Shown one piece after another: positions 8,466-10,826 of a DNA stretch of 40,096 nucleotides (position 1 is the first letter of the stretch; the number at the start of each line of letters is the position of its first letter). The stretch is from positions 1 to 40,096 of the forward strand of contig JANYBJ010000315.1 in assembly GCA_025360845.1 (NCBI GenBank), given 5' to 3'. Origin of the DNA: a bacterium. GTDB taxonomy: Bacteria > Verrucomicrobiota > Kiritimatiellia > RFP12 > UBA1067. Under the pieces are notes generated by a model. That model saw nothing but the letters and a program-made list of their open reading frames with translations. It was not told the origin of the DNA and ran no database searches. A program made the translations under genes and the position numbers.

Positions 8466-8747
8466 CTATTGCCTTTTGATAAGGCGGTCATATTCCGCAT
8501 GAGCGCCAATCCAGAACCAGAGGATAACCAACCCTTCACCGATCACCTCAACGCCCAACGCTCGGTAGTGGAGGCCTGCCCGCACCGACCAGACGTTTCC
8601 GATTTTCTTGAGGTGCAACGATGGATGCTTGGGATTATCTTTCAGAAGTGTAAATTGCGTATCTGCCGCTTCTCGTACGTGGGATGGCAATCGGTGATAC
8701 AGTGCCCAATAGTCGGGACTGGCAAAATGGGTCAGATGCGTTTGCAT
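8466..8747 (-). CDS. RelE/ParE-like toxin
   Basis: This 93-residue protein has the compact RelE/ParE fold pattern. It has an N-terminal helical part (DYWALYHRLPSHVREAADTQ), HPSLHLKKIGNVWSVRAGLHYRALGV for the core strands with conserved Arg residues, and a basic C-terminus. RelE-type toxins cleave mRNA at the ribosome; ParE types poison gyrase. The sequence resembles the short toxins annotated as cytotoxic translational repressors, so mRNA interference is the better guess. The internal ATG at 8747 is chosen over the longer ORF because it overlaps the antitoxin end by only 16 bases, and the upstream extension is just the antitoxin gene in another frame. Confidence 0.75.
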   Translation of the reverse strand: MQTHLTHFASPDYWALYHRLPSHVREAADTQFTLLKDNPKHPSLHLKKIGNVWSVRAGLHYRALGVEVIGEGLVILWFWIGAHAEYDRLIKRQ

Positions 8748-8935
8748 GTGCCCGCCTTGTAATCGGCCCTGGCCTTCTCCATGAGCATTGACAACGGGTT
8801 CGCTGTCTCTTGGTCGTAATCGATCTGATGATCCCAACGCGCTTCCTCGTATGTGTCAAACCATGAGGAAAACGCCATAAACTCCGCCTCCGGGAGCGCG
8901 CTGACGGCTTTCTGAATATCGATTACGGTAGTCAT
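8732..8935 (-). CDS. Antitoxin of the RelE/ParE-like pair
   Basis: This 67-residue, acidic protein precedes and overlaps the toxin gene, the usual antitoxin-first order. Its pattern (IQKAVSALPEAEFMAFSSWF, then WDHQIDYDQETANPLSMLME, ending ADYKAGTCKRI) matches short antitoxins found with RelE/ParE toxins, whose C-terminal helix with a D-x-x-A-G segment binds the toxin. No DNA-binding domain is obvious, so autoregulation is uncertain. A perfect GGAGGAG ribosome site lies 8 bases before the ATG. Confidence 0.75.
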   Translation of the reverse strand: MTTVIDIQKAVSALPEAEFMAFSSWFDTYEEARWDHQIDYDQETANPLSMLMEKARADYKAGTCKRI

Positions 8936-8991: not shown

Positions 8992-9127
8992 ATTGGCAAC
9001 CGTCCGCAGAAGCCCATGGGGAAGGATTCAAAGTCTGCTTGCGTTTTCTCTGGCAAATATTCCAGACCCGCTATATGTTTTGAATGTGTTTGATCGACTG
9101 TGATCACGAACCGAGCCGGAGAAAACA

Positions 9128-10687
9128 ATGTCCTCGTTTGAATCGAAAGAAACGGATACGAACGCGCGGCTGAAGCTCGCGGCAAGAACCCTGTTTTGTT
9201 TCGCCGTGACCGGTCTACCTCTTGTCATTTTAAAGGGAGTTGCAAATCATTTAGAAAAGGAGGACGCGGGAGGGCTCCTTGTTCGGCTCTTTTTCATCTT
9301 ACCCTTAACTGTAACCTGCCTCCGGATGTTCCAGCTAATCTCGCTGAGACATCTTGCGCTGTCTCTAATTCCGTCAGCGCTTTCATTTGGCGTTATACAC
9401 GTGATGGGAAGAAACGACTTGGGCGTTGATGCTGTAATGCCGATTGCGACTATTGTTGCCGCTTTGTTTGTGATGGGCGGCCCTGGCATAGCGGTCGGTG
9501 GTCATCTTGCCCCGCGCGCAAAATCCTCCATGCGTCACAGAATCCTTTATCTCACCGTTATTGCCGCACTTTACGGCCTGATTATTGGGCCGTGGCTTTA
9601 TCGCTATGCCGTGGCAGGCATCACCTCGGCGAGGGCAGGGATAGCGGGCATCGCCCAGCTTAACGCGAACATCACCGATTTGAAACGGACTGTCATCGTG
9701 CCAACGCTCGACACTCCGTTGTCTGCCGGAACCAATATGATCTGGTGCGGAACGATGCAACTCGCATGGAACGAACTCTGCGCGCTTGTGGGCGAAGACG
9801 TACATATGGAGAATGAGGACCCCATCGTTGGGCAACTGAGCAAGCGGGATGTCTCGGCCAAGAACTTGGACGAGAATACGTACCTTCTGGCAGCATTGCC
9901 CGCTGACAGTTCAAGTTTGAGTGCCCTTCGGAAGCGCGTATCCACGAAGTTCAGTGGTGCGGTTTCCCCCGAATTGATTCCAGCAGCCGATACGCTTCCT
10001 CGTAATTCGATTATGCTTTATGCTGCCCTTTTTGTGAACATGCCTTTCGACTGGGCCTTCGACAGGCTGAAACACCCTCTTAAGTTTGGCGGGGGCGACG
10101 TCGCCGCATTCGGGATCGATGGCGATGGCGATTTGGGAGACCGGAGAAGAGTGCGTTCGGTCCGCTCGCAGGTCAAAGTGATCGATTTTAACGGCAATGA
10201 CGACTTCGTCATCGAACTGAAAACAAAGAAGTCGAATCACCAGTTGATCCTCTCCAAGTTACGGCCAGAACTGACGCTGGAAAGTACCGTCCGGTCGGTG
10301 CTCACGCGCATGACCGTAACTCAGCCCGAATCGTCCTTCTGGTTCAACCGCCTGATCGTTCCGGTTGCCGACTACGACCTCGCGCACTGTTATCCAGAAC
10401 TTGTCGGTCGTCCCCTTTGCGTCAAGACGCCCTTGTTCGACAAGATGCCGATCGTCGCCGCGAACCAGAACATCCGCTTTAAGCTGGACGAGCGTGGAGC
10501 CGTATTGAAATCGGAAGCGCTCATAGGGGTTAAAACCGCATCAAAATCCCCGAAGGGGCCGCCTGACCTGATCTTTGACAAGCCGTTCCTTGTCCTGCTG
10601 AAATGCACAACCAGCGATAAGCCCTACTTCGCGATGTGGGTCGATAACCCCGAGATCCTTGTGAAATTCGGGAAGGATGCAAAATAA
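9128..10687 (+). CDS. Multi-pass membrane protein with serpin-like C-terminal domain
   Basis: This 519-residue protein has about five hydrophobic segments in its first 165 residues (around 19-37, 52-70, 74-92, 99-120 and 134-155). A soluble region of about 320 residues follows, the size of a serpin core. Three stretches fit serpin landmarks. RNSIMLYAALFVNMPFDWAF (from 292) resembles the strand carrying the vNA-yFkG-W signature. LDERGAVLKSEALIGV (453-468) sits where the reactive-loop hinge belongs. FDKPFLVLLK, ending in FAMWVDNP, resembles the C-terminal PFLF...G.v.NP signature. The distance from hinge Gly457 to FDKPF fits a normal reactive loop. Hinge positions P12-P9 are bulky or charged, unlike inhibitory serpins, so it may not inhibit proteases. 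Identification is by eye. Confidence 0.5.
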   Translation: MSSFESKETDTNARLKLAARTLFCFAVTGLPLVILKGVANHLEKEDAGGLLVRLFFILPLTVTCLRMFQLISLRHLALSLIPSALSFGVIHVMGRNDLGVDAVMPIATIVAALFVMGGPGIAVGGHLAPRAKSSMRHRILYLTVIAALYGLIIGPWLYRYAVAGITSARAGIAGIAQLNANITDLKRTVIVPTLDTPLSAGTNMIWCGTMQLAWNELCALVGEDVHMENEDPIVGQLSKRDVSAKNLDENTYLLAALPADSSSLSALRKRVSTKFSGAVSPELIPAADTLPRNSIMLYAALFVNMPFDWAFDRLKHPLKFGGGDVAAFGIDGDGDLGDRRRVRSVRSQVKVIDFNGNDDFVIELKTKKSNHQLILSKLRPELTLESTVRSVLTRMTVTQPESSFWFNRLIVPVADYDLAHCYPELVGRPLCVKTPLFDKMPIVAANQNIRFKLDERGAVLKSEALIGVKTASKSPKGPPDLIFDKPFLVLLKCTTSDKPYFAMWVDNPEILVKFGKDAK

Positions 10688-10688
10688 G

Positions 10689-10826
10689 ATGCGATTGCTT
10701 CTGTCACTCCGCAGCGCCTTGGCGATGGTCCTGCTCTCTTCGGCCTTGACCGTCCCGGCCCTCGACATCAAGACGCTCGGCGGGCGCGAGTTCAAGAACG
10801 CGAAGGTCCTGCACCAAACGAGGTGA
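10689..10826 (+). pseudogene. 45-residue truncated secreted ORF
   Basis: One base after the previous stop, an ATG opens a signal peptide (LAMVLLSSALTVPALD). It is followed by IKTLGGREFKNAKV and then an early TGA. The post-signal segment resembles the start of secreted proteins that continue as tl.G..ykna.V..v.pdgl, so this looks like the 5' remnant of a longer gene. It is probably co-transcribed with the serpin-like gene. It could instead be a functional short secreted peptide. Nothing downstream restores the frame convincingly before the next promoter. Confidence 0.45.

Follow-up and report, generated by a model that had tools for sequence, protein, structure and literature searches.

The window, by which we mean the whole 40,096-nt stretch of DNA analysed, carries on its forward strand a gene for a 519-residue protein in which a serpin-like domain of about 340 residues comes after a predicted region of five transmembrane (TM) helices. 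A preliminary description had proposed an open reading frame at 9128–10687, about five TM segments and a serpin-sized domain after them; all are present, hydropathy giving five segments. The features of the gene are as follows.

9118–9121 (+), GGAG, a possible ribosome-binding site 6 nt 5′ of the ATG, by direct sequence reading
9128–10687 (+), whole gene, encoding the five-TM region and the serpin-like domain; ORF with ATG start
9176–9232 (+), hydrophobic segment 1, residues 17–35, by hydropathy
9266–9322 (+), hydrophobic segment 2, residues 47–65, by hydropathy
9353–9409 (+), hydrophobic segment 3, residues 76–94, by hydropathy
9419–9475 (+), hydrophobic segment 4, residues 98–116, by hydropathy
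9542–9598 (+), hydrophobic segment 5, residues 139–157, by hydropathy and charge count
9668–10684 (+), serpin-like domain, residues 181–519, by profile-profile comparison, PDB profile search and Pfam
9734–9748 (+), NMIWC motif, residues 203–207, proposed s6B equivalent, by column frequencies and mapping by eye
10010–10054 (+), s3A-like strand IMLYAALFVNMPFDW, with Phe at the position of breach Trp194, by profile alignment
10490–10519 (+), hinge, P17–P8 E-R-G-A-V-L-K-S-E-A, with Leu at P12 and the invariant P15 Gly
10520–10570 (+), loop at the position of the reactive-centre loop, by alignment and length comparison
10571–10600 (+), s4B-like IFDKPFLVLL, by profile alignment
10622–10648 (+), s5B-like PYFAMWVDN, by profile alignment

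The gene is situated between those for isocitrate dehydrogenase and a GHMP kinase, in a gap that it shares with a toxin-antitoxin-like pair and in which GC3 is 0.58–0.63, compared with 0.83–0.93 in the neighbours. The same two flanking genes are separated by approximately 135 bp in a related genome (G007) and by approximately 1.6 kb, without a serpin-like gene, in a genome of the same genus (G011). The serpin-like gene was probably acquired by lateral transfer. The toxin-antitoxin-like pair, beside the serpin-like gene in the low-GC insert (8466–8935, reverse strand), comprises two overlapping ORFs, one of 93 aa, which matches ParE_like below threshold (E = 0.024), and upstream of it one of 67 aa. 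Positions 10685–10816 hold the remnant of another gene (MRLLLSLRSALAMVLLSS...), the DNA of which is 81% identical to G011 (L111:6249–6380); this remnant suggests that genes have repeatedly been gained and lost between the isocitrate dehydrogenase and GHMP kinase genes. The serpin-like gene occurs as a single copy in its genome, in which no canonical serpin was found. Plasmid and phage collections contained no match to the window protein and viral contigs no relative, hence there is no hint of a viral origin.

The loop ahead of hydrophobic segment 5 contains four Lys or Arg and no Asp or Glu, a charge pattern that would place the serpin-like domain outside the cytoplasm. Over the whole protein, Lys and Arg number nine in the predicted inside loops and three in the outer loops, and this positive-inside pattern predicts an N terminus inside the cell and a C-terminal domain outside. 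The five-TM region belongs to no recognized family and has no known signalling partner; a Bax1-I match to it (E = 0.75) was rejected as a chance pairing of hydrophobic segments.

Relatives were collected in several rounds. A search of the named genomes returned one, L002 from a Planctomycetaceae MAG (30% identity, E = 1e-35), which as query in the phylum of the window gave matches in eleven genomes. A 12-row profile (A2) identified members in seven genomes belonging to the class of the window, the four other matching genomes having canonical serpins, and it matched 23 of the 343 genomes in the phylum of L002, one through a canonical serpin. The final family alignment (A5) comprises 41 domains from a sample of genomes; weak whole-genome matches (L042–L045 and L092) were left out as canonical serpins.

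Taken by itself, the window sequence suggests a kinship with serpins that the family profile makes firm. The full-length protein matches Pfam Serpin with 13.4 bits (E = 0.047; residues 442–502 on profile positions 306–364) and the domain alone with 14.5 bits, both under the gathering cut-off of 27, and neither NCBIfam nor a single-sequence PDB search with the window protein gave a match. Across the family, Pfam Serpin matches 27 of the 41 members and any other Pfam family at most one. When the PDB was searched with the 41-domain profile, the best 60 matches listed were all serpins, headed by plasminogen activator inhibitor 1 (E = 2.4e-7). Alignment of this profile by hhalign with one of 24 ordinary bacterial serpins from related genomes (A6, the canonical serpins of this comparison) gave a probability of 96.9, E = 1.8e-10 and a score of 82.9 over 226 columns; reversed serpins scored 16.0 and 20 column shuffles at most 23.1. 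By these profile comparisons the domain is a divergent member of the serpin superfamily, as the preliminary description had supposed. When the profile was split, the signal proved to be carried by the C-terminal part, from s3A to s5B (E = 1.5e-9), whereas no significant alignment with serpins was obtained for the N-terminal third.

The alternative that the resemblance is convergent and the fold something else draws on that unalignable N-terminal third, on the failure of any single member to reach the Pfam cut-off in the reported searches, and on two AlphaFold predictions, each from the pair of the window protein and L002, whose mean pLDDT values of 32.4 and 31.3 give no confident three-sheet fold. 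Such convergence is very improbable given the distance of the profile score from its shuffled and reversed controls, the alignment of some 226 columns in order and the uniformly serpin composition of the best 60 PDB matches listed. The family profile run on whole genomes also retrieves canonical serpins (L042–L045), and the length from s3A to the hinge is equal in the two groups (median of 165 aa in the family vs. 164 in serpins).

Three landmarks had been pointed out in the preliminary description, with profile similarity at them set beforehand as one of two points on which the serpin assignment would turn, the other being a predicted three-sheet fold. In the profile-profile alignment, which is the one scoring 82.9 against 23.1 or less, all three pair in order with the matching serpin elements: the s3A strand with serpin LVLVNAIYFKGNW, the hinge LDERGAVLKSEA with the serpin hinge VNEEGTEAAAAT, and the C-terminal IFDKPFLVLL...WVDNP with FRADHPFLFLI...RVADP of s4B/s5B. 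The proposed s6B Asn and s3A are separated by 90 residues (86–95) in the family vs. 134.5 (119–184) in serpins, which leaves the N-terminal part of the family domain about 45 aa below serpin length and short of the complete serpin set of helices A–F and strands s1A and s2A.

The family keeps the P15 Gly (41/41), the P17 Glu (30/41) and the PF of s4B (40/41). Residues of the hinge, breach and shutter have been replaced in a fixed, family-specific manner. P12 is Leu or Val in 40 of 41 members vs. Ala in 23 of 24 serpins, and P14 is mainly Ala in the family and Thr in serpins. Phe stands at the breach Trp194 position in 39 members and Ala, Gly or Ser at the Asn186 position in all 41; the His334 position is Gln in 40, a residue also present there in seven of the 24 canonical serpins. 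By a motif alignment made by eye, on which the equivalences of Asn49, Ser53 and Ser56 are based, the Asn of NMIWC corresponds to serpin Asn49 and its Cys to the Ser53 position, where 32 members have Cys and 37 have Cys or Thr; Phe occupies the Ser56 position in 24.

Inhibitory serpin hinges have small side chains, and an Ala-to-Thr change at P12 of antithrombin abolishes inhibition (PMC3268027); the ExGTEAAAA hinge is kept by almost all prokaryotic hub serpins (PMC8233489). The inhibitory consensus (P17–P9) is absent here, the window hinge reading ERGAVLKSE. The preliminary description had remarked on this unlikeness to inhibitory serpins in the one sequence, and it is a trait of the family. 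Since the departure from small hinge residues and from ExGTEAAAA is family-wide, suicide protease inhibition is unlikely. Charged residues are found at P13 in 22 of the 41 members, at P11 in 31 and at P9 in 27, and in none at P14, P12, P10 or P8. This alternation is the pattern expected of a β strand with one buried face, so that the hinge may sit permanently inserted in the sheet; the charges at P13, P11 and P9 are compatible with a permanent strand, short of proof.

The opposite possibility, that the protein is a membrane-tethered and still inhibitory serpin with an odd hinge, trapping proteases at the cell surface, takes its plausibility from the serpin homology of the domain and from the uncharged P14, P12, P10 and P8, which leave loop insertion possible. 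The window loop also agrees with the serpin fit claimed for it earlier, its hinge-to-PF distance of 28 lying within the 24–35 (median 29) of canonical serpins, and in one genome a subtilase gene is directly upstream of a five-TM member. We nonetheless consider this reading improbable. The hinge has Leu or Val at P12 almost throughout and mainly charged residues at P11 and P9, where inhibitory serpins have Ala; the breach Trp is gone in 39 of 41 members and the Ser53 position altered in 37. Hinge-to-PF distances in the family are 21–33 (median 25), and many loops of 21–23 residues fall below all canonical serpins compared. In most related pairs the loop is less conserved than the remaining domain (mean identity 0.23 vs. 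0.40), as would suit an inhibitor and as holds for canonical serpins (0.34 vs. 0.48). Between the closely related secreted proteins L008 and L011, however, the loop is the better conserved part (0.74 vs. 0.62 elsewhere in the domain), unlike a fast-changing bait. Because canonical serpin loops vary too and the L008/L011 loop is conserved, loop variability decides neither for nor against inhibition.

Five or almost five TM segments are present in five members (the window protein, L003, L038, L039 and L046), L046 showing four strong segments at the same hydropathy threshold. These members come from four bacterial families of one class, and the tree of the domain groups them in a single clade (97/93, with a bootstrap that had not settled fully), so the fusion to a polytopic membrane region, which had seemed unusual for a serpin, recurs in relatives. 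L003, L038 and L039 are alike in the sequence of their TM regions; that of the window protein has no significant similarity to those of the other members (E of 0.08–0.26), and its kinship to them is drawn from the tree of the domain, the topology they have in common and the junction motif. One of the genomes concerned, G164, encodes two canonical serpins in addition to its own five-TM member. No conserved operon partner of the five-TM members was found, their neighbours being different. In G526 a subtilase gene (L052:2–1603, forward strand; Peptidase_S8, E = 2.7e-37) ends 83 bp before a five-TM gene, the sole such case seen. L047 and L049 (G526) and L041/L048 (G558) lack the middle of the domain and have both ends in frame; they are pseudogenes, assembly errors or genuine short forms.

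The other members are apparently secreted, lipid-anchored or provided with a single hydrophobic segment, those without a TM region having signal peptide-like or lipoprotein-like N-termini as judged by eye. In three related genomes (L056, L057 and L059) the secreted version adjoins a gene for a GNAT-acetyltransferase/carbon-nitrogen hydrolase fusion, possibly a conserved neighbour. Fusions to membrane and signalling modules recur in the family as judged from domain matches. In L002 the C-terminal module is a tyrosine/dual-specificity phosphatase domain; DUF1559 is fused in L088 and DUF2950 in L081. L080 (1501–3561, reverse strand) and L082 (916–2547, forward strand), from two genomes (G624 and G761) in the phylum of L002, each encode in one reading frame an ECF sigma factor (TIGR02937, E = 4.2e-19 and 3.6e-18), then a hydrophobic stretch rich in Ala, and then the serpin-like domain. 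The stretch in L080 is under the hydropathy threshold, and a membrane anchor is less certain there. A tblastn search with the two fused sigma domains found no sigma-factor genes beside other members in the fetched flanks. Members of the family are weakly detected or missed by the curated family libraries searched and are probably annotated as hypothetical proteins.

We favour, and consider somewhat probable, the reading that the domain derives from a serpin, is non-inhibitory, has its hinge pre-inserted and serves for recognition or sensing outside the cytoplasm on a five-TM inner-membrane protein. A polytopic inner-membrane protein with five TM helices and its N terminus inside would show a divergent serpin-superfamily domain on its outer face. 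This domain is of serpin descent; its hinge, breach and shutter residues have given way to a family-specific set that is itself conserved, and it is about 45 residues shorter than serpins between s6B and s3A. Protease trapping would probably have been lost, and a hinge held permanently in the sheet would give a stable domain, the state of which could be relayed to the attached module, here the five-TM region and in two relatives a cytoplasmic ECF sigma factor. The sensor role is argued by analogy with other members and is favoured mainly for the two sigma-factor fusions. These same fusions are hard to square with a purely structural role, in which the non-inhibitory serpin derivative would act near the membrane as scaffold, chaperone or ligand carrier without signalling. 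The evidence for homology and for lost inhibition applies equally to such a role, many relatives are simply secreted or lipid-anchored and have no signalling module, and the chaperone HSP47 and hormone carriers are among the serpins known not to inhibit (PMC3268027); we regard it as a serious alternative, if a rather unlikely one.

The favoured sensor reading can be extended to the whole bacterial family, in which a locked-hinge serpin fold would be a modular extracytoplasmic sensor joined to five-TM regions, to ECF sigma factors tethered to the membrane and to further modules. Transcription or membrane activity would then be under the direct control of the conformational chemistry of the serpin fold, for example when a protease outside the cell cuts the loop. 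This extension is speculative and on present evidence unlikely. Serpins have nearly always been studied as metastable protease traps. If the sensor reading is true, the family would show what the serpin fold can do without inhibition, the C-terminal two-thirds being kept, the parts of the trap replaced and part of the N-terminal third shed, and it would offer outside signals a new way of reaching sigma factors. The serpin-like family, which bacteria attach to sigma factors and other modules, is absent from the family libraries searched.

The closest known system is the serpins of PF00079, including the prokaryotic groups S–U (for example miropin, tengpin and thermopin), to which homology is detectable from s3A to the C terminus over 226 columns. 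Common to both are s3A, segments of sheets B and C, s5A, the P15 Gly, the PF motif of s4B, and s5B. The family differs in its N-terminal part, which is shorter by about 45 residues and unalignable, in its exchanged hinge, breach and shutter residues, in a loop that is often shorter, and in its five-TM or sigma-factor fusions. Like ovalbumin, HSP47 and the hormone-binding globulins, its members would be serpin relatives departing from protease trapping (PMC8233489, PMC3268027), but those are animal proteins with the full serpin fold, whereas the family is bacterial, shortened and modular. A literature search, thin on subscription journals, found no paper on serpin–sigma factor fusions, planctomycetes included. 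L080 and L082 resemble the ECF sigma factors with extensions (for example ECF41/42 and planctomycete ECFs) in combining an ECF sigma factor with a sensory-type extension, and C-terminal extensions are described as regulating ECF sigma factors in the accessible part of PMC8103513. Unlike L080 and L082, the extensions described in that part have no serpin-like domain behind a hydrophobic segment.
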